From Bacteriovoracaceae bacterium (GTDB lineage: Bacteria; Bdellovibrionota; Bacteriovoracia; Bacteriovoracales; Bacteriovoracaceae): a stretch of 35,946 bases of DNA. Both the position numbers and the translations under genes were made by a program. Location of the stretch: positions 1 through 35,946 of the forward strand of contig JADHTQ010000047.1 of NCBI GenBank assembly GCA_016784965.1, read 5' to 3'. The notes under the pieces were generated by a model. That model worked only from the letters and a program-made list of their open reading frames with translations, had not been told where the DNA came from and made no database searches. Below are positions 12,126 through 33,668 of the stretch, piece by piece. Numbering within the stretch: position 1 is the stretch's first letter; every line of letters begins with the position of its first letter.

Positions 12126-15100
12126 ATGAAACATTCCAGCCTGGATTCATCAGAAAACTTTCTTTTACATAAGGTATTTACAAGTGTGGCCAAAAAATTT
12201 CCTCACAAATTGGCAATCAAACACAACCAAACACAGATAACTTATCAAAAACTTGACGAATTATCTGATCAAATGGCCAAAAATTTAATTCAACAAGGAG
12301 TTAAAGGTAACTCTTTAGTTGGAGTATGTTTAAATCGCAGCCCAGAGATGATTGCATCTCTACTGGGCATTTTTAAGGCCTCATGTGCTTATCTTCCTCT
12401 AGATCCAGATTACCCTCTTGAGCGACTCCACTATATGGCAAATGATTCAGAGATTAAACATGTTATTGTGGACAAAACTACTGATACTTTATTTGATGAT
12501 AAAAATTTATCCTGTACTGCCCTATCTATGGACAGCTTACTGGAGCAAAATAATGAATTTGAAGGCAGTTTACCTGAGCCAGAAGAAAATCCAATGGCAT
12601 ATGTCATCTATACATCTGGTTCAACGGGAAATCCAAAGGGAGTCTGTGTTAGACATCAAAGCTCTAGATTACTGCTAAAGTGGAATATTACTTCAACTAG
12701 ATTGCTAGAATGTGACACAACTTTGCAGTACTTCCCGCTTAGTTTTGATCCTTCATTTATGGAAATTTTTAGTACTTTTTTTACAGCTAAGACATTGGTG
12801 CTAATTGGAACACAAGAGAGAAAAGATCCTGCCATTTTATTAAAAACGATAATTGATGAAAAGATTAACCGCTTATCCGTTCCAATTGTCGTTTTAAATA
12901 CATTAGTTGATGAAATAAACGCCAGTGGAAAAATGCCAGCAAGCCTTTTAGAGGTTAACTGTGCTGGTGATACCATGAAAATCAACAAAACTTTGGTTGA
13001 GTTTTTCTCTCAACTCGACAATGTTCACTTAAACAATCAATATGGCCCGACCGAAGGTTGCGTAATCGTTACCAACATGAATATGCAGGGTGATCCTACC
13101 TTGTGGAGTGAGTTGCCTCCAATCGGACAACCATTAACGGGCGCCACTATCCATATTCTAGATGAGTCAATGAAGCCAGTTGCTCTTGGAGAAAAAGGTG
13201 AACTTCATATATCTGGGCCTTGTCTGGCAGTTGGCTATTGGAAAAGAGAAAAGTTAACTGCTGAGCGTTTTGTGACTGCACCTATTGATGGGGTAGATAC
13301 TAGACTCTATAAAACAGGAGACCTCGCCTCATATGATAGTGAGGGCAATGTTTTATTCCATGGAAGAATTGACCAGCAAGTTAAGATGAATGGCTTTAGA
13401 ATTGAGCTAGGTGAAATTGAAGCGACAATTATCAAACATCCAAATATTAGTGATGCTGCTGTAAAATTGATTGAAGTTAATGGTATTAAACTTTTGGCGG
13501 CTTACTATATAGGCGATACTGATTCAAAAAATTTAAGAGAGTTTTTAAAGGAGAAATTGCCAGCAAATATTCTTCCACATCGCTACAAGAAAATGGATAC
13601 ATTTCCTCTTTCTCCAAATGGCAAAGTTGATAAAAGGGCCTTTCCTGAAATCGAAGAAAGTGGTACCGGCAAAAAAGTTGATCCAATTGATCAAGCTGAG
13701 GAGAAAATTCTAAACTTATGGGAAGAGACACTAAAAATTGGGGGCATTGGCACTGAGGATAACTTTTTTGAAATCGGTGGAAACTCACTACTTGCTATTA
13801 AACTAATAGCAAAAATTAACAAAGAGCTCTCTTCCAGTATCTCTGTGGCTGAGTTTTTTCAATACCCAAATGTTTCTAAACTTGCAAAGTTTATTGGTAA
13901 TAAAATTGAAACTAAAAGAAAAAAAGCAAAAAAGAAAAATATTAGTCAAGATATTGCAGTTGTAGGACTTGCGGCAAGATTGCCAGGTGCAAGTAACGTC
14001 AGTGAATTTTGGAAAATGATCTGTGACAAAACAGAAGGTATATCATTTTTTAAAGATGATGAGATTGACTCTGCAGTTCCTGTAGAAGAGCGCAATGATC
14101 CAAACTATATAAAAGCACGTGGAATACTTGAAAATGTCGATCAATTCGATGGTAGCTTTTTTGGTCTATCTCCTAGAGTATGTGAGCTTATGGACCCACA
14201 ACTGCGCATAATGATGGAAACATCTCATCAGGCCTTAGAAAATGCGGGCATTGCTCCTACTAAGTTTGATGGCAAAATCGGTGTATTTGCTGGAATGTCA
14301 GCAAATACTTATTATAAAAACAATATCGCAAACGCTCCACAAAAGATAAAGTCTGTGGGAGAGTGGACTGTTACAACATTTAATGAAAAAGATTACATCT
14401 CTACCCAGATTGCTCATAAACTAAACCTCAATGGTCCAGCACTAAGCATTCATACCGCCTGTTCAACATCTCTTGTTGCCATAGCTTCAGCTGTTCGCTC
14501 TTTACAAGCAGGAGACTGCGAAGCTGCAATAGCAGGTGGGGTAAACGTTGAAGTTCCATCTAAAGCTGGCCACCTTTTTCAAGAAGGTGGAATTCGTACT
14601 AAAGACGGACATTGTAGACCATTTGACCATAAAAGTAGTGGCACCTTATTTTGTGACGGTGCCGGAGTTGTCGTACTTAGACCACTTGAGGATGCAATTG
14701 CTGATGGTGATACAATTTATGGTGTCATTAAAGGTGTTGGTGTAAATAATGATGGCAATGATAAGGTAAGCTTTTCAGCTCCAAGTGTAAATGGCCAGCG
14801 TGGCGCCATTGAAATGGCCCTAAATGAGGCAAACATTGATCCATCTACCATAGAATTAATGGAAGCTCATGGTACTGCTACACCAGTAGGAGACCCAATA
14901 GAGGTTGAGGCATTAACTCAAGCTTGGAATAATAAAGAGAAAAAGACTACTTACTGTGCCCTAGGTTCAGTCAAATCTAATATCGGTCATACCGTAGCAG
15001 CTGCAGGTGTTGCTGGTTTTATTAAAGCTGTATTGTCTTTAAAAAATGAAGTAATTCCTCCAAGTGCTAACTTTACTAAAGAAAATCCAGCAATTGATTT

Positions 15101-18100
15101 TGCAAGCACTCCTTTTTATGTGAGCAAAGACTTAAAAAAGTGGCAATCAAGTAAGCACCCAAGAAGAGCAGCTGTTTCTTCATTTGGTATCGGCGGTACA
15201 AACGCCCATGTTGTACTTGAAGAGTCACCTGTAAAAATAGAAAGTGACAATAAAGAAACAGAATCAACATTACCTCTTATTTTCCCTCTTTCTGCCAAAA
15301 ACTCAAATTCCCTAAATGCTTCACTCAAGCAATTAGAGGCCTTCATACAAGACAAAGAAGATAGTGATCTTCTGGACATCAGCCATACCTTAAGAGAGGG
15401 GCGTGAAAATTTTGATTTTCGTACTTCAGTTGTTGCTTCGACAAAAGATGAACTTTTAAAATCTCTTAACTCAAGTATAACTGCTGCCCTCAAATATAAT
15501 AAAGCTAGTAGAGATGATGTGATTTTTGCATTTCCTGGCCAAGGGGCCCAATACTTGGGCATGGGCGAGAGTTTATACACAAACTATAGTGTATTTCAAG
15601 AAAGTGTTGATAAATGTGCAAGCATACTAAACAAATATCTCGACTGTGATATCAGAGACATCATTTTTGGGAAAGTTGGTGATGATGATACACGGCTAAA
15701 AAATACATATTATACTCAACCATCAATATTTGTCATTGAGTACTCTCTAGCTCAACTTTATCTATCATTTGGTATCAGACCATCTGGCTTAATTGGCCAT
15801 AGTGTGGGTGAATTTGCAGCTGCTACCATTTCTGGTGTTATGAAGTTAGAAGATGCTTGTATGCTAATAGCCAAAAGAGGAACTCTAATGAGAGATCTTC
15901 CTGGCGGAAGTATGTTGAGTATCAGAGCGGCCCAAGCAGACATCCAAAAGTACCTTACAAAAAAGGTTCAGCTGGCTGCAGTTAATGGACCAAAACTTTG
16001 TGTAGTAGCAGGAGCAGATGAGCACATTGATGAGGCCATTTTAAAACTGCAAGCAGATGGTATCGCTTGCAAAAAGCTTCACACATCTCACGCATTTCAT
16101 AGCTCAATGATGGAACCAATTGTTGATCAATATACAAAAATTGTGAGTACTGTTTCTTTTAAAAGTCCAAGTATTCCTATCTTATCTACACTTACTTCTG
16201 ATTGGATAAGCAGTGAAATGGAAGATCCAAGTTACTGGGGTCGGCATGTAAGAGAGACAGTTTTATTTAACCCTGCGATTAAAAAGATAATTGACAGGAA
16301 AAAATCTGTACTACTAGAAATTGGTCCAAGAAACACTCTGGCTACACTTACTGCACAAGAAGCTAGAGTAAGCAAAGGTAGTCTTGTGTCAGTCGCCTCA
16401 ATGGAGGGTAATCCTGGAGCAGCTGAGTTGCAGGCATTCATATTATCTCTTGGCAAACTTTGGAGTCAGGGGATCGCTTTTAAGTGGAGTGACACCCATG
16501 CCGCAGCTGGCAGCAGAGTACCAATTCCTACCTACTGCTTTCAAAGAAAGAGTTTTTGGATTAGTGGTAAAAATGAAAAAGTAATTAAAAAGGCACAAAT
16601 AAAAATCAAGCGCAATAAAGGAACAGATGTGAACCAGGTATTGAATAATTTGACCAGTGATTTAAGTATTATCTTACAAGATGCTTCGGGTTTTTCTGCT
16701 GAAGAATTATCTCCAGATCAAACATTTTTAGAAATGGGGTTTGATTCACTGCTACTCACTCAAGTGGCCCTAGAGCTTGGTAGAAAATTTGAGTGCAAGC
16801 TCACTTTTAGACAACTTTTGGATGAGTTTTCAACCATCAGTTCTTTGGCATTTTTTTTGGTGAATAATGCGCCAAAAAGCATTATTATGACTTATGAGTC
16901 AAATGAAGAAGTACAAGTTGACGAAGAAGAGTTAGAAGTAAATCAGTTACAAGATCAGGATCAAATTATGGAGGAGCAGGTCCAAGTATCCCTACCACAA
17001 CCATCGGTAAGTTCTGTACCACTTGCTGATGCAAATGGCCTAGAAGCTGTTGTGGCCAAACAATTAGAGCTTATGGAAAAACAACTCCTTCTTCTACAGG
17101 GTAGATCTGTTGCGACTGCACCTACTACAACTGTAGCTAAAAAAGTAGTTAAACAAGCTGCTAAGCAAGTTGTTGTAAAAAAGACACCTGCCCAAGAAGA
17201 AAAAATTGAATCTGTTAAAGCTACAGTGGACACTTCAAAGTCTGCTTTTGGTGCACAAGCTAGAATCAACACAAAACAGGTTTCTGAGCTAGAAGCAAAA
17301 CAAATTAAAAGCCTACATAATTTCATGGATAGTTATATAGAAAAAACAAATAAATCTAAAGAATTCACGCAAAAATATCGCAAAAAAAATGCTGACCCAC
17401 GCGTCGTAACAGGGTTTAGACCTGAGATAAAAGAAATTGTTTACCCACTAGTTGTCAATAAGTCTAAAGCACAACACCTATGGGATATTGACGGAAATGA
17501 GTATGTCGATATTACTTGTGGTTTTGGATCAAACTTCTTTGGAAATCAGAACCCAAGGATTACTAAGGCACTTCACGACCAAGTTGACCGCGGATTTGAA
17601 ATTGGACCTCAACATGAATTAGTTGGTGAGTGCGCAGAACTTATTTGTGAATTCACTAAAATGGAAAGAGCTGCATTTTGCAACACAGGATCTGAGGCAG
17701 TTTTAGGAGCAATTAGAATTGCTAGAACTATATCTGGCCGCTCTAAAGTTGTTGTGTTCAAAGGCTCATATCACGGCATCAACGATGAAGTAATCGTAAG
17801 AGGTCTAAAAGATGGCAGAGCAATGCCAGCTGCAGCAGGTATCACGAAGTCTTCTGTGTCTGACATGATCGTCTTAGAATATGGTTCCGATGAAGCTTTA
17901 GAAGTTATCGAAAAAGAAGCTGCAAATATTGCGGCAGTAATAGTTGAGCCAGTCCAAAGTAGAAGAACTGAATTTAGACCTGTTGAGTTTTTAAAGAAAG
18001 TCAGAACATTGACCAGTAACCAAGATATTGCTTTTATCTTCGACGAAGTTATTACAGGCTTTAGAATTGCTCCAGGTGGTGCCCAAGAATACTTCGGTAT

Positions 18101-18779
18101 CCAAGCAGATCTTGCTACCTATGGCAAAATTATCGGTGGCGGACTCTCAATTGGAGTTATCGCTGGTGATAGTAAGTATATGGACGCTCTTGATGGAGGC
18201 GACTGGCAATTTGGTGATCAATCATCACCAACAGTTGGTGTGACATATTTTGCTGGAACTTTTGTTAGACACCCACTTGCTCTTCGAGCCATGAGGGAAG
18301 CACTTTTAATTTTAAAAGAAGAAGGACCACAACTATATGATAGAATTAACAAAAGAAGTGATGAGTTTGTTCAAGAACTAAACCTCTTTAGCTCCTCTGT
18401 AGGAGCACCTATTAAGATTAATCACTTTGGAAGTGTGTTGAAGCCTAAATTTACTGATAGTGGTGCAAACAATGATGTCTTCTTTGCTTATATGAGACAT
18501 AATGGTGTACATGTCTGGGATGGTTTTCCATGGTTTATTACTATGGCACATACTGAAGAGGACTTGCAGCAGGTAATTGCCATGTTTAAAAAGAGTGTGG
18601 CCCAAATGCAAGAAGCGGGACTATTTCCTACAAACTATAGTCAAACCTACACTGACTCTAAAGATTTTATCACTCCACCAGTAATTGGAGCAAGGCTTGG
18701 TAAGGACCAAAATGGTTCACCAGCTTGGTTTATAGAAGATAAAGAAAATGCAGGTCAATATCTGCAAGTTGAAAATTAG
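12126..18779 (+). CDS. hybrid NRPS-PKS synthetase A-PCP-KS-AT-ACP-aminotransferase
   Basis: A 2217-residue synthetase. Domains in order: adenylation (about 10-510; YTSGSTGNPKG about 162-172, QYGPTE about 305-310, YKTGDL about 395, C-terminal NGKVD with the catalytic Lys); carrier 1 (Ser554 in GGNS); ketosynthase (about 607-1035; Cys779, His915, His955 all present); acyltransferase (about 1130-1430; Ser1226 in GHSVGE, HAFH at 1322-1325, the malonyl-CoA pattern); carrier 2 (Ser1541 in FDSL); a Lys/Ala/Val-rich linker; and a class III PLP aminotransferase related to glutamate-1-semialdehyde aminomutase (about 1760-2165; Asp1973, PLP-Lys2001 in YGKIIGGG). There is no KR, DH or ER, so the beta-keto group should be transaminated directly, as the AMT of mycosubtilin/iturin synthetases does. 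Pocket residues read by eye are D-P-M-S-N-A-Q-V-I-K: an alpha-amino acid substrate, identity unknown. The gene ends 13 bp before its partner. Confidence 0.96.
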   Translation: MKHSSLDSSENFLLHKVFTSVAKKFPHKLAIKHNQTQITYQKLDELSDQMAKNLIQQGVKGNSLVGVCLNRSPEMIASLLGIFKASCAYLPLDPDYPLERLHYMANDSEIKHVIVDKTTDTLFDDKNLSCTALSMDSLLEQNNEFEGSLPEPEENPMAYVIYTSGSTGNPKGVCVRHQSSRLLLKWNITSTRLLECDTTLQYFPLSFDPSFMEIFSTFFTAKTLVLIGTQERKDPAILLKTIIDEKINRLSVPIVVLNTLVDEINASGKMPASLLEVNCAGDTMKINKTLVEFFSQLDNVHLNNQYGPTEGCVIVTNMNMQGDPTLWSELPPIGQPLTGATIHILDESMKPVALGEKGELHISGPCLAVGYWKREKLTAERFVTAPIDGVDTRLYKTGDLASYDSEGNVLFHGRIDQQVKMNGFRIELGEIEATIIKHPNISDAAVKLIEVNGIKLLAAYYIGDTDSKNLREFLKEKLPANILPHRYKKMDTFPLSPNGKVDKRAFPEIEESGTGKKVDPIDQAEEKILNLWEETLKIGGIGTEDNFFEIGGNSLLAIKLIAKINKELSSSISVAEFFQYPNVSKLAKFIGNKIETKRKKAKKKNISQDIAVVGLAARLPGASNVSEFWKMICDKTEGISFFKDDEIDSAVPVEERNDPNYIKARGILENVDQFDGSFFGLSPRVCELMDPQLRIMMETSHQALENAGIAPTKFDGKIGVFAGMSANTYYKNNIANAPQKIKSVGEWTVTTFNEKDYISTQIAHKLNLNGPALSIHTACSTSLVAIASAVRSLQAGDCEAAIAGGVNVEVPSKAGHLFQEGGIRTKDGHCRPFDHKSSGTLFCDGAGVVVLRPLEDAIADGDTIYGVIKGVGVNNDGNDKVSFSAPSVNGQRGAIEMALNEANIDPSTIELMEAHGTATPVGDPIEVEALTQAWNNKEKKTTYCALGSVKSNIGHTVAAAGVAGFIKAVLSLKNEVIPPSANFTKENPAIDFASTPFYVSKDLKKWQSSKHPRRAAVSSFGIGGTNAHVVLEESPVKIESDNKETESTLPLIFPLSAKNSNSLNASLKQLEAFIQDKEDSDLLDISHTLREGRENFDFRTSVVASTKDELLKSLNSSITAALKYNKASRDDVIFAFPGQGAQYLGMGESLYTNYSVFQESVDKCASILNKYLDCDIRDIIFGKVGDDDTRLKNTYYTQPSIFVIEYSLAQLYLSFGIRPSGLIGHSVGEFAAATISGVMKLEDACMLIAKRGTLMRDLPGGSMLSIRAAQADIQKYLTKKVQLAAVNGPKLCVVAGADEHIDEAILKLQADGIACKKLHTSHAFHSSMMEPIVDQYTKIVSTVSFKSPSIPILSTLTSDWISSEMEDPSYWGRHVRETVLFNPAIKKIIDRKKSVLLEIGPRNTLATLTAQEARVSKGSLVSVASMEGNPGAAELQAFILSLGKLWSQGIAFKWSDTHAAAGSRVPIPTYCFQRKSFWISGKNEKVIKKAQIKIKRNKGTDVNQVLNNLTSDLSIILQDASGFSAEELSPDQTFLEMGFDSLLLTQVALELGRKFECKLTFRQLLDEFSTISSLAFFLVNNAPKSIIMTYESNEEVQVDEEELEVNQLQDQDQIMEEQVQVSLPQPSVSSVPLADANGLEAVVAKQLELMEKQLLLLQGRSVATAPTTTVAKKVVKQAAKQVVVKKTPAQEEKIESVKATVDTSKSAFGAQARINTKQVSELEAKQIKSLHNFMDSYIEKTNKSKEFTQKYRKKNADPRVVTGFRPEIKEIVYPLVVNKSKAQHLWDIDGNEYVDITCGFGSNFFGNQNPRITKALHDQVDRGFEIGPQHELVGECAELICEFTKMERAAFCNTGSEAVLGAIRIARTISGRSKVVVFKGSYHGINDEVIVRGLKDGRAMPAAAGITKSSVSDMIVLEYGSDEALEVIEKEAANIAAVIVEPVQSRRTEFRPVEFLKKVRTLTSNQDIAFIFDEVITGFRIAPGGAQEYFGIQADLATYGKIIGGGLSIGVIAGDSKYMDALDGGDWQFGDQSSPTVGVTYFAGTFVRHPLALRAMREALLILKEEGPQLYDRINKRSDEFVQELNLFSSSVGAPIKINHFGSVLKPKFTDSGANNDVFFAYMRHNGVHVWDGFPWFITMAHTEEDLQQVIAMFKKSVAQMQEAGLFPTNYSQTYTDSKDFITPPVIGARLGKDQNGSPAWFIEDKENAGQYLQVEN

Positions 18780-18792
18780 TGGGAGTTAACAA

Positions 18793-21700
18793 TTGAGCTT
18801 TAAACATGTGAATTACAACCCGTTTGCAGGCAACAATGAACTACAAGTAGCCGTCTCTACCACCGAATCCCAAAAAGAAATATGGAATAGTATTTTACTG
18901 GATGAAAGTGCCACTGGTGCTTTTAATGAGTCGATGACCATTAAGCTTGAGGGGCCGATAAATGTTATGTCCTTAGAGCAAGCAATTTCAAAAACTATTA
19001 ACCGCCACGGGGCTTTAAAGACAACCTTTACCCCTGATGGCAAAAACATGATGGTGGATTTAGTATCCTCTGTTGACCTTGAAAGGATTAATTTAACCAA
19101 CGTTTCTGATGATGAAAGGCAAGAGCTGTTTGAAAAAATCATAGACGATGAAACAAAAATTAATTTTGATCTTATAAATGGACCTGTTTTTCGGTGCAAA
19201 CTTATATCTTTTCATGGTGACCTACATTATCTTGTAGCCTCAGCTCATCACATTATCTGTGACGGTTGGTCCTGGGCCATAGTTATGCATGATTTGGGGC
19301 AATTTTATAATGCCTCACTCACACATCAAGATTTTTCACCTGAGTCACCTTACCAGCTATGGCAATTTTCACAGGATCAAATCAAGCGTCAGGAAAATAT
19401 AGATGAGCATAAAAAATACTGGATAGAGTTGTTTAAAGATGGTGGTCCCATTATGGATTTACCAATTGATTTTGATCGACCAGAGTTTAGAACCTATAAT
19501 TCTAAGCGCATAGACTTTGAGTTATCTTCTGATCTAGTAAAAAAACTAAAACGTCTTAGTGCAAAAAATGGTGTTAGTTTTTACCATACAATTTATGGAT
19601 CATTTACCTTACTCCTGCACAAGCTGAGCGAACAAAACGACTTAGTAGTAGGTATTTCTGCTGCTGCCCAATCAATTCTAGGTAAAGATGAACTGGTTGG
19701 ACATTGTGTAAATTTACTACCCATTAGAAATAGTGTTGATCCAAACAGTACTGTTAAGTCTCATATAATAAATACAAAAGAAGCGGTTCTATCTGCTTAT
19801 GATAACCAAGAATTTACTTTTGGAAGCCTATTAAAGGTAATTCCACTAAAGCGAGATGTTAGTAGAATTCCTCTAGTGTCAGTCATTTTTAATATCGATC
19901 AGCAACCTATAGGACAAGGCCTTGATTTCAAAGGGCTCAATTGTTCATATAAAACTAATCCCAGGCATTTTGAAAACTTTGAAATATTTGTCAATGCTAC
20001 CGTTTGCGGTGACCACGTTGTACTAGAGACTCAATATAATACTGACCTCTTTAGCTCTGACTCAATCAATAAGTGGTTGAGCTCCCTTAACCAATTACTC
20101 AACATAGTCTCAGAAAATATTGATATTCAAATTGATAAGCTTCCACTGGACCTTACACGAAAAGTTGCTGCTGCTAAGAAAGTTGCAAAGCGCCCTATTG
20201 CCGACGCCCCACAAGCCACCGTCAATCAACAGACCGTTGATAAACTTAAGACCATCTGGACTGGCTTACTTGGCGACAGGGTTATTAAAGAAGAAGACAA
20301 TTTTTTTGCACTAGGCGGCCACTCTTTGCTTGCAAGTGAGATGATGTTAAAAATTGATGAGGAATTTGAGGTAAAGATTGGTTTAAGAGATATTTTTCGT
20401 GCAAAATCATTTGCTGATATCTGTTGCAAAATTGAAGATAAGTTAAAAACTACCACCACCACTTATGAACATAAAATTAAAAGTGTTAAACATAGTGGCC
20501 CTATTGAACTATCTCTACAGCAGTTTCGAGCATGGTATGTACAAACCCTTGCACCTGACACTACTCTATTTAACCTTCCAGCAGCATACCACTACACTGG
20601 AAATTTTGACCTAAATGCATATAAGCAAGCATTAAATACTTTTATTGCACGACACGAAGCCACTAGAACTGTCATAAAAAAATCAAAAAGTGGACCCCTC
20701 ATGGAAATTCTTCCCTCTATGACGTTAGACTTGGAAGTAGAAACCGTAAGTGGTAAATCACTTAATTCTAAACTAAATAATTTACTCACAATTTTAAAGA
20801 AAAAGGCATCAACAACTATCCAACTAGAGGAAGAATCTCTTTTTAAAGTCAAACTTTTTAAACTTGATGACAACAATTTTGTCTGCTTCACTCTAATTCA
20901 TCATATAATTTGGGATGGATGGTGCTACGATATATTTAGAGATGAAATGGCAAAACTCTACCAAGGCTTTAAAAGTGGACAGGAAAACATACTCGATAAT
21001 CTTCCAAGTATTACTTACCGCGATTATTGTCTCTGGCAAAAAGAATTCCTCTCAGGAGATGAGTATACAAGACAGATGAATTTTTGGAAAAGCAAACTAT
21101 CTGGAGAACTGCCGGTACTACAGCTTCCACTTGATCGCCCAAGACCTAAAATCTTAAATTATCGCGGTAGCGGTACCCTTTTAAAATGGAGCGAAGATGA
21201 GATTGTTCCTTTGGAGATAATTGCAAAAAAAAATGGGACCACTCTTTTTAACCTGCTCTTGCTGGGATATAAAATTTTACTTCTTCGTTATAGCAGCCAA
21301 CATGATCAAATTGTCGGTACTCCTGTTAGAGGAAGAAATCACAGCGGGCTAGATAAACTTATTGGCTTTTTTGTCAATAACTTGGCAATTCGAACCAAAC
21401 TCGATTCAAATAAAAGTGTTCTTGATAATCTCAGCTTAGTAAGTGGTAGTACTGCTGACTCATTTGAAAATGCCGAGGTAGGATTTGATGATATTGTAAA
21501 CGCACTAAATGTTGCAAGAAACCCTTCTATTACACCGATTTATCAGACTTTTTTCATGTTTCAAGATGCTACTAATCGAAAAGAGGGATTTGTAGACATG
21601 GAGTTTTCTTCTTATCCTCTACAAAGAGGGGCCTCCCATACTGACCTGGATTTTTGGGCCAGAAGAGATAGAAATGGAATGACAGGCGGCTTAGACTTTA

Positions 21701-24408
21701 TGAGCGATCTTTTCGATCCACAAACAGTAGAAAGAATGGGAGATGATTTAAAATTTATTCTATCCTCCTTTATAGGAAATGAATCGATAAAGCTTGCTGA
21801 TCTTCCATCACTTCATCCACAGAATAGAAAGTTACTAATAGATGGCTGGAACCAAACTGAAGTTGCCCTGCCAAAGCAAGTTGGCCTTCACAATTTAATT
21901 GAAGTGCAAGTTGATAAGGTTCCAAATAAAGTTTGTTTTGAGTATGAGGATCAGACCATTACTTATCAAGAGCTTGATATACGAGCAAATCAAGTAGCAC
22001 ACTATTTACTAAAATGTGGCGCTAAAAAGGGTGAGCTGATAGGAATCGCTATTGACCGTTCTATAGATATGATCGTTGGGATTTTAGGTATCCTTAAATC
22101 GGGTGCTGGCTATGTACCCCTTGATCCAGATTTTCCAAGTGAAAGACTTGAATATATGTTAGAACACTCAAAGTGTCGCTATGTTTTGACTAATGAGCAA
22201 AACAAGCAACTATCAGTCTTTAGTAATGTTTCTATCATATCAATTGACGGAGATAAACAACCAATCTCTGTGATGCCCACGACAAGAACTAACATCGACT
22301 TGTCGCCTGATGATCCATGCTATGTAATATACACCTCTGGATCAACAGGTAAACCAAAAGGGGTACAGATTCCTCATAGTAGTGCAATTAACTTTTTGAT
22401 GGCCATGCAAAAAAGACCAGGCATGAGTTCTGATGATGTCTTTTGTGCTGTTACCACACTTAGTTTTGATATAGCCGTTTTAGAGTTATACCTACCTTTA
22501 ATATCAGGAGCTAAAGTGGTTATCGTCTCAAGAGAGACTGCACTTTTTGGTGAGCAACTTAAGGCCATTTTAGAAAACAAAAAAGTAACAATTATGCAAG
22601 CAACCCCTGCTAGTTGGCGCTTACTCATACATGCAGGCTGGAAGGGCAGTGACGATTTCAAATCTCTATGTGGAGGTGAGCCTTTTCCAAAAGATCTCGC
22701 ATCTGATCTAATTGATAGAGTTTGTGAAGTATGGAATATGTATGGACCGACTGAGACTACTGTTTGGTCAACATGTAAACGGATCGAACACACTAATGGA
22801 CCAATTCTGATAGGTAAGCCTATCGACAATACTACGATCTATATTTTTGATGACGATATGAATTTATGTCCTATTGGCGTACCAGGAGAACTCTATATTG
22901 GTGGAGCGGGTCTTGCTACAGGGTATCTATTTAGAGAAGATCTAACTCGCGAGCGCTTCATTAAAAACCCTCTAGATCCAAGTAAACTAATTTATAAAAC
23001 TGGTGATTTGGCCAGATATCATCAAAATGGTGATTTAGAGTGCCTGGGCAGAAATGATGGTCAGGTAAAAGTTAGAGGCTATCGAATCGAGTTAGGAGAG
23101 ATTGAATCAGTCCTTGCAAGTCACAGCCACGTCAAACAACAAGTAGTAATTGTGCGCGAGGATCGCCCAGGTGATGTTCGTATCGTTGCTTACTATATCA
23201 GCAGTACCGGAAGTGAGATACCTGAAAGTGAGCTGCGCGAACACTTAAAAGATAAATTACCTGCATATATGATCCCTGCACATTTTGTGAGATTATATAA
23301 ATTCCCAATGACACTAAATGAGAAAATTGATCGCAAAGAGCTACCACCACCTTTTGGTGAAAAAACCATATCCGAAGATGATCACTTCATTGCTCCTTCA
23401 AGTAAAACTGAAATCGCCCTTGCAAAAATTTGGTCCGAGGAAATTGGAGTAGAAAGGATAGGAAAAGATGATGACTTTTTTAATCTTGGAGGTCACTCGC
23501 TACTGTCTGTGCGAGTTTTTAATCGAATTCACGACGAATTGGGAGCTGACATTCAGCTAAGTGTTCTTTTTGAATCGTCAACTCTTAGTGAATTGGCCAA
23601 TGAAATAGATAAAATAGACTCTAAAGATACAGCTGCTGTTAGGTCAAATATAAATATACCTTCTGACTGGAAATCACTTGTCGGAATTAGACCTTCTGGA
23701 AAAAATGCGCCGTTATTTTTCATTCACGGTGTTGGAGGGAATGTTCTAAATTACCGAAAATTGTTAAAGCATATCGACCCAAATACTCCTATATTTGGTT
23801 TGCAATCTCCTGGAGTAGATGGGAAAACAGAGCTAGCGGAATCAATTCACGACATGGCCTCAATTTATGCAGAAGAAATTTGTATGATTGATCCTATAGG
23901 ACCATACACCATAGTTGGTGGTTCTATGGGCGGTTTGTTGGCATTAGAGGTTGCCAGAATATTAAAAGAACAAAACCGTGAAGTTAAACAGCTTATAATG
24001 TTTGATACTTTTGGTCCAAAATATGACGTCAGACGCTTTGGGGAGCAAGATAGAAATTTCATTCAAAATGTTAAAACCTCCCTATACTATCGAATTAAAA
24101 CATTTCTCTATGGTTTGCAATATATGATTTTAACAATGTTTGGGATTCCAATCCCTCACAAAATTCGTTATTTCAATATTGAGATGAACAACTACCGACT
24201 TCTTTGGAAACACAAAACCTCAACTTATGATGGAGATATAGAACTGATTCGGGCGCCAATCAAGGATAAAGGATGGTATGCCGATCCACAGCTTGGATGG
24301 TCAGAGACCATTAAAGGTAAAATTAATACCTATCAAGTAGATTCCGGACATCATGACTTTGTAGAAAGTGAAGAAGTAGGAAAGGTTTTCAAAGAAATTA
24401 TTCAGTAA
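18793..24408 (+). CDS. nonribosomal peptide synthetase C-PCP-C-A-PCP-TE
   Basis: An 1871-residue NRPS. The start is TTG at 18793, chosen because GGGAG lies just upstream and the condensation domain begins at once. Domains: C1 (about 15-450; HHIICDG at 152-158; GHCVNLLPIR, as in condensation domains that follow PKS modules); carrier 1 (Ser511 in GGHSLL); C2 (about 570-1010; HHIIWDG at 703-709; GFFVNNLAIR, LCL-like); adenylation (about 1030-1530; YTSGSTGKPKG about 1180, MYGPTETT, YKTGDL, NEKID); carrier 2 (Ser1569 in GGHSLL); thioesterase (about 1640-1871; Ser1711 in GGSMGG, His1853 or His1854 in SGHHDF). The first module has no adenylation domain. The A pocket D-I-L-Q-L-G-M-V-W-K (Asp1226 first) is close to the known glycine code. 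The 3' end overlaps the convergent deacetylase gene by 7 bp. Confidence 0.96.
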   Translation: MSFKHVNYNPFAGNNELQVAVSTTESQKEIWNSILLDESATGAFNESMTIKLEGPINVMSLEQAISKTINRHGALKTTFTPDGKNMMVDLVSSVDLERINLTNVSDDERQELFEKIIDDETKINFDLINGPVFRCKLISFHGDLHYLVASAHHIICDGWSWAIVMHDLGQFYNASLTHQDFSPESPYQLWQFSQDQIKRQENIDEHKKYWIELFKDGGPIMDLPIDFDRPEFRTYNSKRIDFELSSDLVKKLKRLSAKNGVSFYHTIYGSFTLLLHKLSEQNDLVVGISAAAQSILGKDELVGHCVNLLPIRNSVDPNSTVKSHIINTKEAVLSAYDNQEFTFGSLLKVIPLKRDVSRIPLVSVIFNIDQQPIGQGLDFKGLNCSYKTNPRHFENFEIFVNATVCGDHVVLETQYNTDLFSSDSINKWLSSLNQLLNIVSENIDIQIDKLPLDLTRKVAAAKKVAKRPIADAPQATVNQQTVDKLKTIWTGLLGDRVIKEEDNFFALGGHSLLASEMMLKIDEEFEVKIGLRDIFRAKSFADICCKIEDKLKTTTTTYEHKIKSVKHSGPIELSLQQFRAWYVQTLAPDTTLFNLPAAYHYTGNFDLNAYKQALNTFIARHEATRTVIKKSKSGPLMEILPSMTLDLEVETVSGKSLNSKLNNLLTILKKKASTTIQLEEESLFKVKLFKLDDNNFVCFTLIHHIIWDGWCYDIFRDEMAKLYQGFKSGQENILDNLPSITYRDYCLWQKEFLSGDEYTRQMNFWKSKLSGELPVLQLPLDRPRPKILNYRGSGTLLKWSEDEIVPLEIIAKKNGTTLFNLLLLGYKILLLRYSSQHDQIVGTPVRGRNHSGLDKLIGFFVNNLAIRTKLDSNKSVLDNLSLVSGSTADSFENAEVGFDDIVNALNVARNPSITPIYQTFFMFQDATNRKEGFVDMEFSSYPLQRGASHTDLDFWARRDRNGMTGGLDFMSDLFDPQTVERMGDDLKFILSSFIGNESIKLADLPSLHPQNRKLLIDGWNQTEVALPKQVGLHNLIEVQVDKVPNKVCFEYEDQTITYQELDIRANQVAHYLLKCGAKKGELIGIAIDRSIDMIVGILGILKSGAGYVPLDPDFPSERLEYMLEHSKCRYVLTNEQNKQLSVFSNVSIISIDGDKQPISVMPTTRTNIDLSPDDPCYVIYTSGSTGKPKGVQIPHSSAINFLMAMQKRPGMSSDDVFCAVTTLSFDIAVLELYLPLISGAKVVIVSRETALFGEQLKAILENKKVTIMQATPASWRLLIHAGWKGSDDFKSLCGGEPFPKDLASDLIDRVCEVWNMYGPTETTVWSTCKRIEHTNGPILIGKPIDNTTIYIFDDDMNLCPIGVPGELYIGGAGLATGYLFREDLTRERFIKNPLDPSKLIYKTGDLARYHQNGDLECLGRNDGQVKVRGYRIELGEIESVLASHSHVKQQVVIVREDRPGDVRIVAYYISSTGSEIPESELREHLKDKLPAYMIPAHFVRLYKFPMTLNEKIDRKELPPPFGEKTISEDDHFIAPSSKTEIALAKIWSEEIGVERIGKDDDFFNLGGHSLLSVRVFNRIHDELGADIQLSVLFESSTLSELANEIDKIDSKDTAAVRSNINIPSDWKSLVGIRPSGKNAPLFFIHGVGGNVLNYRKLLKHIDPNTPIFGLQSPGVDGKTELAESIHDMASIYAEEICMIDPIGPYTIVGGSMGGLLALEVARILKEQNREVKQLIMFDTFGPKYDVRRFGEQDRNFIQNVKTSLYYRIKTFLYGLQYMILTMFGIPIPHKIRYFNIEMNNYRLLWKHKTSTYDGDIELIRAPIKDKGWYADPQLGWSETIKGKINTYQVDSGHHDFVESEEVGKVFKEIIQ

Positions 24409-32057: not shown

Positions 32058-32148
32058 TTAGCCGTTTGTTCATTAACTAACATGTAAACGGCTAAATTAT
32101 TGTCCACAAGTTAGCCGTTTGGTGATATAATTACATGCAAACGGCTAA
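32058..32148. repeat. pair of 38-bp palindromic elements upstream of the ATPase gene
   Basis: Each copy has the arms TTAGCCGTTT and AAACGGCTAA separated by 18 nt: copy 1 at 32058-32095, copy 2 at 32111-32148. Arms are identical between copies; spacers differ except for a shared ACATG next to the right arm. No further copy was found downstream of the ATPase gene. Arms of 10 bp (11 in copy 2) and the position suggest an operator pair for a dimeric protein, or recognition sites used by the ATPase itself. Confidence 0.85.
32103..32131 (+). promoter_or_regulatory. promoter of the ATPase gene inside palindrome copy 2
   Basis: A perfect TATAAT (32126-32131) sits in the spacer of the second palindrome, 17 nt after TCCACA (32103-32108, four of six matches). 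A start near 32138 gives a 37-nt leader to ATG 32175, which has AGAGG about ten bases upstream. A protein bound to the palindrome would cover the -10 box. Confidence 0.5.
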
Positions 32149-32174
32149 GCAATGTAAACAAGAGGCATTCAGCA

Positions 32175-33668
32175 ATGAGAGGATTGAAGATAGCAGTAAA
32201 CAGACAATTTGTCGGCAGAGTTAGAGAAATTAACAAGTTAAAGGAGATTGATCAAAACAGTGACGCTCAAGCAATTTTTATATATGGCAGAAGAAGAGTG
32301 GGGAAAACGGAGTTGATCGAGCAGTTTTTCAGAAAAAAAAATATCATAAAATTCGAAGGTTTACAGGTAGACCCAAGTGTAAGATTTGATTTTTTAAAAG
32401 ATCAGCAAAGACAAATAAGCGAGTCACTACGTAGATTGGCCATCTATACAAATGATTCAAAGATTCCAAGATCCGTAGATACTTGGTCTCACTTTTTTGA
32501 ACTTTTAAGGATTCATATTCGTGAAAGTGACGTTTTATATTTTGAAGAGGTGCAATGGTTATCTTCATATAGATCAGAATTTTTTTCGCGACTTAAGGTT
32601 TTTTGGGATGATTTTTTTAAGCATATCCCAAAACTTAGAATTATAATCTGTGGTTCTTCACCGTCATTTATTTCAAATGAAATCGCTTCCAATCAAGCAT
32701 TTTACAATCGCTCCTCCAGTGAAATAAATCTATCACCATTTAACATTACTGAAATAAAGCAATATTTAGGAGCAGGATTTGGTGCAAGAGAAATATTAAT
32801 GGCAACACTCACAGTAGGTGGTATCTGTGGATATCTCGAGCATTTTAAAAAAAGCGAGTCATCAATATTTCAAACCCTATGTAAATTATCAGCAGTAAAA
32901 GATGGTGCCTTAAAGACCGAATTTAAAAAAATTTTTATTAATAGCATGTCCTCTAATAAGCACTACAAGAATATTATAAATTATTTATCAAAAAAAAAAT
33001 TTGCCTCAAAAATCCAAATTGCAGACCATCTAAGGCTAAAAACACCAGGAGGGAACCTCACAAAAATATTGCAGGATTTAGACGAATGTAATTTTATTGA
33101 TGCATATACACCAATCCTAAATGAAAATGCACGAAACATTAAAAGATATTGTATCTCTGATGAGTATTTAAATTTTTATAACCGCTTCATTCTGCCAGAG
33201 CTTCGAAATATCAATTCAAATATGTATGATGACTCTCCAATGATGTTTATTGATGAACAGAAGCTACAAATTTCTATGGGATTTATTTTTGAAAAATGGT
33301 GCCGCAAAAACCATAAATTACTTGCAGAGATTATGATGTTTAACCAAGTCAAGTATAATGCTGGAGCCTTTTTTAGTAAAAAGACGGATCAAATAGATAG
33401 AGGATTTCAGATCGACCTCATGTATATTAGAAAGGATAGTCGAATCGTAATCTGTGAGATAAAAAACTACCATGAAACTTTAGATGATCAACAAATTATC
33501 AAGAGTATAAAAGATAAAAGAGATCTATTTATCAAACAGAATCCCAAATTTAAACATTACACATATGAGTTAACTCTAATCGCACCAGAGGGTGTAAGTG
33601 AGAAGATACGCACTGATGGTGTAATTAAACATGTTATAACATTTGATGATATATTTAATCATACTTAG
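32175..33668 (+). CDS. archaeal-type P-loop ATPase with C-terminal DUF234/PD-(D/E)XK-like domain
   Basis: A 497-residue member of the STAND-like ATPase_2 group common in archaea and patchily present in bacteria. The Walker A motif is GRRRVGKT (38-45). The Walker B position reads LYFEEVQWL, with Glu where Asp is usual, and sensor 1 is IIICGSSPSF. A winged-helix segment follows (about 270-320, KIQIADHLRLKTPGGNLTKIL). The C-terminus (about 410-440) has QIDLMYIRKDSRIVICEIKNY, an Asp...Glu-x-Lys pattern of restriction-endonuclease-like folds. No transmembrane segment. The function of the family is not established. Its palindrome-embedded promoter and lack of operon partners suggest a self-contained, perhaps mobile or autoregulated unit. 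Confidence 0.82.
   Translation: MRGLKIAVNRQFVGRVREINKLKEIDQNSDAQAIFIYGRRRVGKTELIEQFFRKKNIIKFEGLQVDPSVRFDFLKDQQRQISESLRRLAIYTNDSKIPRSVDTWSHFFELLRIHIRESDVLYFEEVQWLSSYRSEFFSRLKVFWDDFFKHIPKLRIIICGSSPSFISNEIASNQAFYNRSSSEINLSPFNITEIKQYLGAGFGAREILMATLTVGGICGYLEHFKKSESSIFQTLCKLSAVKDGALKTEFKKIFINSMSSNKHYKNIINYLSKKKFASKIQIADHLRLKTPGGNLTKILQDLDECNFIDAYTPILNENARNIKRYCISDEYLNFYNRFILPELRNINSNMYDDSPMMFIDEQKLQISMGFIFEKWCRKNHKLLAEIMMFNQVKYNAGAFFSKKTDQIDRGFQIDLMYIRKDSRIVICEIKNYHETLDDQQIIKSIKDKRDLFIKQNPKFKHYTYELTLIAPEGVSEKIRTDGVIKHVITFDDIFNHT

Follow-up and report, generated by a model that had tools for sequence, protein, structure and literature searches.

The window, here the whole 35,946-nucleotide stretch of contig JADHTQ010000047.1 from a Bacteriovoracaceae bacterium (assembly GCA_016784965.1), carries an array of inverted half-sites directly ahead of a gene for a winged-helix ATPase that also has a nuclease-type domain. 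The palindromes of this array are one case of a general rule in hundreds of related single-gene ATPase-nuclease units. As computed directly from the DNA, an array of nearly constant spacing, with a sequence private to its gene, overlaps the promoter and is transferred together with the gene. Such a combination of an operator array and one gene is likely to be a self-contained cassette, autoregulated through binding of the array by the encoded protein. Binding of the array by the gene's own protein is very probable, repression of the gene by this protein is fairly probable, and the chances of a defence role of the family, which is suggested by its PADLOC status, patchy distribution and fold, are about even.

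The half-site array and its counterparts

The array and the adjoining signals of the window are as follows.

32058..32067, + strand: half-site 1 (>), TTAGCCGTTT, located by pattern search and shuffles
32086..32095, - strand: half-site 2 (<), AAACGGCTAA
32111..32120, + strand: half-site 3 (>), 53 base pairs (bp) from half-site 1
32139..32148, - strand: half-site 4 (<), 53 bp from half-site 2
32123..32131, + strand: extended -10 element TGATATAAT, between half-sites 3 and 4
32162..32166, + strand: putative ribosome-binding site AGAGG, 8 bases 5′ of the ATG, read by eye in the sequence

The twin 38-bp palindromes described in an earlier note on this DNA are exact: TTAGCCGTTT-N18-AAACGGCTAA occurs at 32058-32095 and at 32111-32148, 53 bp from start to start, with 10-bp arms identical in both copies and spacers of 18 bp. 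This pattern had 0 matches in 100 dinucleotide shuffles. The TATAAT that the same note placed in the spacer of the second palindrome lies at 32126-32131 and forms part of the extended -10 element. The extended form is supported by a promoter scan, where TG was present in 10 of 12 promoter matches, and transcription would be expected to start near 32138. Since half-sites 2 and 3 also pair as an inverted repeat, one array of four alternating half-sites (> < > <) is a better description than two palindromes. Wide occurrence as a repeat, which the note had named as the outcome that would speak against its proposal, was not seen: the pattern was found only at the window locus in the 4.59 Mb genome, which rules out the array as a genome-wide repeat. 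The array sites were also considered as viral targets and rejected, as the single exact match in IMG/VR lies beside an apparent transfer RNA gene, without the ATPase, at about chance level.

Similar arrays precede most relatives of the gene. The array was defined here as an inverted repeat within 150 bp upstream of the gene, judged against shuffles. A first set of 38 upstream regions contained 29 in which the inverted repeat exceeded 95% of the shuffles. Among 80 GTDB loci, 58 had an upstream inverted repeat, strong in 49 (about 1 expected), and the count inside the genes was 2 of 80. For 210 distinct genes, the upstream repeat was significant in 164, compared with rates of 13% in downstream DNA, 7% far upstream and 3% within the coding sequence. 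The set of 297 relatives from many phyla gave 227 significant upstream repeats, 194 of them strong against 2.8 expected. In 96 of 125 genes, the stretch covered by the array contains or overlaps a -10-like box, and the arrays often reach -118 and further upstream.

The spelling of the half-site varies from gene to gene (TATCCGCAA, ATCACCAAA, ATGCTCAAA, TATCTCCAA, TTGCCGATC and others), and only a loose form, nnnnCnCcAAA, is shared. The arrays of two further paralogues were each unique in their genome, and in the covariation set described below 0 paralogue pairs sharing a genome had closely matching half-sites. An exception is the pair L039/L042, two copies in the genome G019 with 97% amino acid identity, whose half-sites are the same. 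Compared with matched pairs, no clear depletion of shared sites was found among same-genome paralogues. Three haloarchaeal members have short direct repeats ahead of the start codon, e.g., TCATTATC, and the M. jannaschii member has a short ATTATCAT array (archaeal loci L353-L360 and L191).

The distance between the repeats is far less variable than their sequence. When the direct-repeat lag was scored upstream independently of the half-site calls, the best lag in the 210-gene set was 54 (46 genes), 55 (31), 53 (15) or 56 (12), while the number of shuffled genes at lags of 50-59 was 0. Of the 297 genes, 216 had a clear repeat, and in 181 of these the lag was 50-58 bp. The typical period is thus 54-55 bp, and that of the window array is 53. 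Such constancy of spacing with varying sequence is compatible with a protein assembly whose geometry is fixed. The sister family of DUF4143/AAA_14 genes (PDC-S01-like; L322-L351, e.g., L328, L335 and L341) has no 54-bp inverted array; its best direct-repeat lag is 31-33 bp in 9 of 18 usable upstream regions, and it may carry another kind of private array.

The protein and the covariation of its winged helix with the half-sites

The gene and the parts of its product that matter here are the following.

32175..33668, + strand: ATPase - winged helix - PD-(D/E)xK protein of 497 amino acids (Pfam, PADLOC, AlphaFold2 model)
32958..33155, + strand: winged-helix domain, residues 262-327 (AlphaFold2 model)
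33408..33464, + strand: PD-(D/E)xK active-site region (Q412, D414, E428, K430), invariant in 34 relatives

The protein matches Pfam ATPase_2 with 51.1 bits (cut-off 33.2) and AAA_14 with 37.3 bits; the match to DUF234 is weak (19.9 bits, below the cut-off of 22.5). The hidden Markov model of PADLOC family PDC-S27 (PDLC04984) covers residues 11-494, nearly the full length, with 279 bits. In the AlphaFold2 model (predicted local distance difference test score 91.3, predicted template modelling score 0.89), a nucleoside triphosphatase (NTPase) domain is followed by a winged helix and a nuclease-type domain. Both the winged-helix-like segment and the nuclease-like C-terminus read earlier from the sequence are present in the model. 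The modelled winged helix consists of helices 262-272, 279-285 and 293-304, the last being the recognition helix, and of wing strands 308-311/324-327. The nuclease-type domain has the strand arrangement 411-419/423-429. Among 34 relatives, the Walker A motif G38-R-R-R-x-G43-K44 and the putative catalytic residues D414, E428 and K430, together with Q412, are invariant. Walker B (residues ~124-126) reads FEE in the window protein and in the three relatives closest to it, and FDE or LDE in nearly all others. In structure comparison, the NTPase and winged helix resemble 2QEN, 2FNA, the nucleotide-binding leucine-rich repeat receptors (NLRs), CED-4 and Orc1 (Z 14-20). As modelled, the gene product is a winged-helix ATPase of the STAND (signal transduction ATPases with numerous domains)/Orc-like type with an intact-looking PD-(D/E)xK motif.

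The link between protein and array comes from covariation. Half-site similarity increases with protein identity across gene pairs. In a partial regression, only the identity of the winged helix (residues 256-330) predicts half-site similarity (beta 0.213, permutation standard deviation 0.034), with beta values of 0.065 for the AAA domain and -0.053 for the nuclease. An unbiased scan of the whole protein over all pairs peaks at windows 283-291/286-294 (z 7-9). The label permutations behind these all-pairs values do not preserve phylogeny. The peak residues, 283-300, correspond to the turn and the first part of the recognition helix in the model, and the best column is N294, which also ranks first of all residue-base pairs in mutual information, with a small lead over other columns. 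When each gene was used once, the recognition-helix window gave a partial rho of 0.26 (nominal p 0.0044, n=105) and ranked first in all four selections of the expanded set. Reading of the array by the gene's own winged helix is supported by this pattern.

Transfer of the unit and rival explanations

The array and the gene travel together. Among 131 close pairs, i.e., those with at least 75% DNA identity, which are not independent as many come from few clades, 120 share DNA limited to the array and the gene, with unrelated flanks. The shared DNA has a median start at -76, about the outermost half-site, and a median end at -9 relative to the stop codon. The Wolbachia/Rickettsiales loci L051, L158 and L170 show this at 88-89% identity, and in L039/L042 the homology begins at the palindrome edge. 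Erosion of the flanks could contribute in less similar pairs, and it should not at 84-92% identity. The L042 copy (1428-2591), a second copy of one of the G019 cassettes, has 93% DNA identity to L039 and ends within the gene near the contig end; it may be either a broken cassette or an assembly edge.

The earlier suggestion that the ATPase binds these sites itself and forms a self-regulated unit is strongly supported by the private promoter arrays of most relatives, the winged-helix covariation and the joint transfer. In the mechanism proposed here, the protein would contact the array through the recognition helix of its winged helix. Binding by an oligomer with a set geometry would hold the half-sites to their 54-55 bp period and leave their sequence free to change. 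The occupied array would repress the gene's own promoter and keep a potentially harmful nuclease low; repression is the most likely outcome because the array spans the -10 element and the expected transcription start. A trigger that acts via the ATPase, for example a phage or foreign DNA of another kind, may then free the protein, or re-arm it, for attack by the nuclease. With sites of their own, 5-20 paralogues would be able to share one cell with little cross-talk.

Several points weigh against this interpretation. A significant array was not detected in about a quarter of the members of the 297-gene set, and the haloarchaeal members mostly lack an inverted array. The covariation depends partly on related pairs, because correction over the whole protein brings the p value of the independent pairs to 0.23-0.53. 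A winged helix in a STAND protein may have a structural role only. Sequence does not reveal whether the regulation is by repression or by activation.

The last point leaves a possible though doubtful place for an alternative in which the protein binds its own array as an activator, or in which the array, serving for sequestration or as a self-mark, holds the nuclease in check, in place of simple repression. STAND ATPases such as MalT activate transcription, a structure of the MalT system is among the Foldseek matches, and activation or sequestration would agree with arrays extending to -118 and beyond; the usual overlap of the array with the core promoter speaks against it. Somewhat less likely is a mobile element of one gene, with the array as its 5′ end or recombination site; the nuclease would act on the array for mobilisation, and regulation would be secondary. 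The boundaries of the close-pair homology, including the palindrome edge in L039/L042, are what such an element would leave, and the patchy distribution, the many copies per genome and the relatives in phage contigs, Wolbachia phage WO included, point the same way. Against this, the half-sites are confined to the 5′ side: only 6 exact half-sites were found in 144 downstream regions, giving no 3′ terminal pair, so the terminal inverted repeats at both ends that mark a transposon are absent. No target-site duplication was seen by eye at the aligned cassette ends, and the -10 boxes lie within the array. Of the selfish element with insertion-marking sites that the earlier note had considered, the transferred unit of array and open reading frame thus stands, and a matching site at the 3′ end does not.

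It is very improbable that another host regulator or nucleoid protein binds the palindromes. Inverted repeats in promoters are often the sites of separate regulators, but here each paralogue within a genome has a different site, the tested arrays are unique, and the sites accompany the gene across phyla and covary with its winged helix; no recurring neighbour that could encode a partner was found beside the family members. A function of the repeats as RNA hairpins, in an attenuator or leader structure, has still less to recommend it. The inverted repeats are close to the start codon, as such hairpins would be, but the first palindrome of the window is 5′ of the -10 element, and hairpins need neither the same half-site sequence throughout the array nor the 54-bp repeat. 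An Rfam scan matched no RNA family, and no terminator-like site was found.

Distribution, known systems and significance

The distribution of the family is patchy, with many copies in some genomes. The genome of the window has 9 such genes, and two related genomes have 14 and 16. Within the bacterial family, 7 of 129 genomes carry them, compared with 109 of 234 in the order to which one chlamydial genome belongs. Relatives were found in Aminicenantes, Nitrospira, Chlamydiae, Rickettsiales, Legionellales, Verrucomicrobia, Planctomycetes, Acidimicrobiales, others and phage contigs; those in genome and viral contigs were recovered with an alignment query, a single-protein query having given no matches. 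In Wolbachia phage WO and relatives (L192, L046, L260), the member is preceded by a repeated ACCGCGGTATATAATGCTAACATACGCCGCGGT array. The related IMG/VR contigs L048 and L054 have flanks that are 93% and 88% identical around a stretch that differs and holds a different family ATPase in each, a possible exchange hot spot. The window also contains two very large neighbouring open reading frames, 12126-18779 (2217 amino acids) and 18793-24408 (1871 amino acids). Orthologues of a 1045-amino-acid neighbour in the window were found elsewhere, with DbpA not adjacent to them, so that they provide no readable empty site for the cassette.

The window ATPase belongs, by its nearly full-length match, to the same protein family as PDC-S27 (ATPase_2/DUF234, COG1672-like). 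PMC12988326 describes PDC-S27 as a fusion of an ATPase with a PD-(D/E)xK-superfamily domain; the candidate consists of one gene and is abundant among both archaea and bacteria. Most PDCs, PDC-S27 included, await experimental validation. The remark of the earlier note that the role of the family is not known therefore holds as regards a validated role, although the family is already listed as a defence candidate. Operator arrays are not mentioned in the available parts of PMC12988326 and PMC13356809. A literature search, with most subscription journals beyond reach, found the upstream array undescribed and, on the family, no more than its listing as an uncharacterised candidate in these two sources, so that the novelty is provisional.

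Among proteins of known structure, the archaeal ATPases SSO1545 (2FNA) and PABY2304 (2QEN) have an AAA and winged-helix fold alike over ~300 residues (Z 18.6 and 19.9), but they are 350-residue structures without the C-terminal nuclease-type domain and are ~20% identical. Plant NLRs, CED-4 and Apaf-1 of the STAND class, as well as Orc1/Cdc6, have the same NTPase and winged-helix arrangement. Orc1/Cdc6 reads inverted DNA sites with its winged helix. The family of the window protein differs in covarying with a private promoter array, and no origin or immune-receptor function is implied. In regulation, RepA of repABC plasmids is similar in that paralogous ATPases in one cell each specifically autorepress their own operon (PMC4492784, as available in part); it differs as a ParA-family protein with a partition function, a three-gene operon and no nuclease domain. 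RptR (PMC12255303) and CapK/CapS (PMC13373217) are, in the parts available, likewise cases of transcriptional control of defence genes, but their regulator is a separate protein, whereas in the window cassette effector and regulator would be one polypeptide.

Thousands of such genes are counted as defence systems, and their control and the signal they sense are not known to anyone. The operator is computable from its 54-55 bp repeat, private half-sites and predicted reader helix 283-300, and would give a predicted binding site for each gene. The family could thus be annotated by DNA as well as by protein, and its hundreds of natural reader-site pairs are suggested as a basis for a recognition code. 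More speculatively, the family may be a very large cross-phylum class of single-gene elements in which one polypeptide combines a sensor ATPase, a reader of private sites and a nuclease. The array would then serve as operator, self-mark and boundary of the mobile unit, its occupancy would restrain the nuclease, and the diversifying reader-site code would make many copies compatible within one cell.
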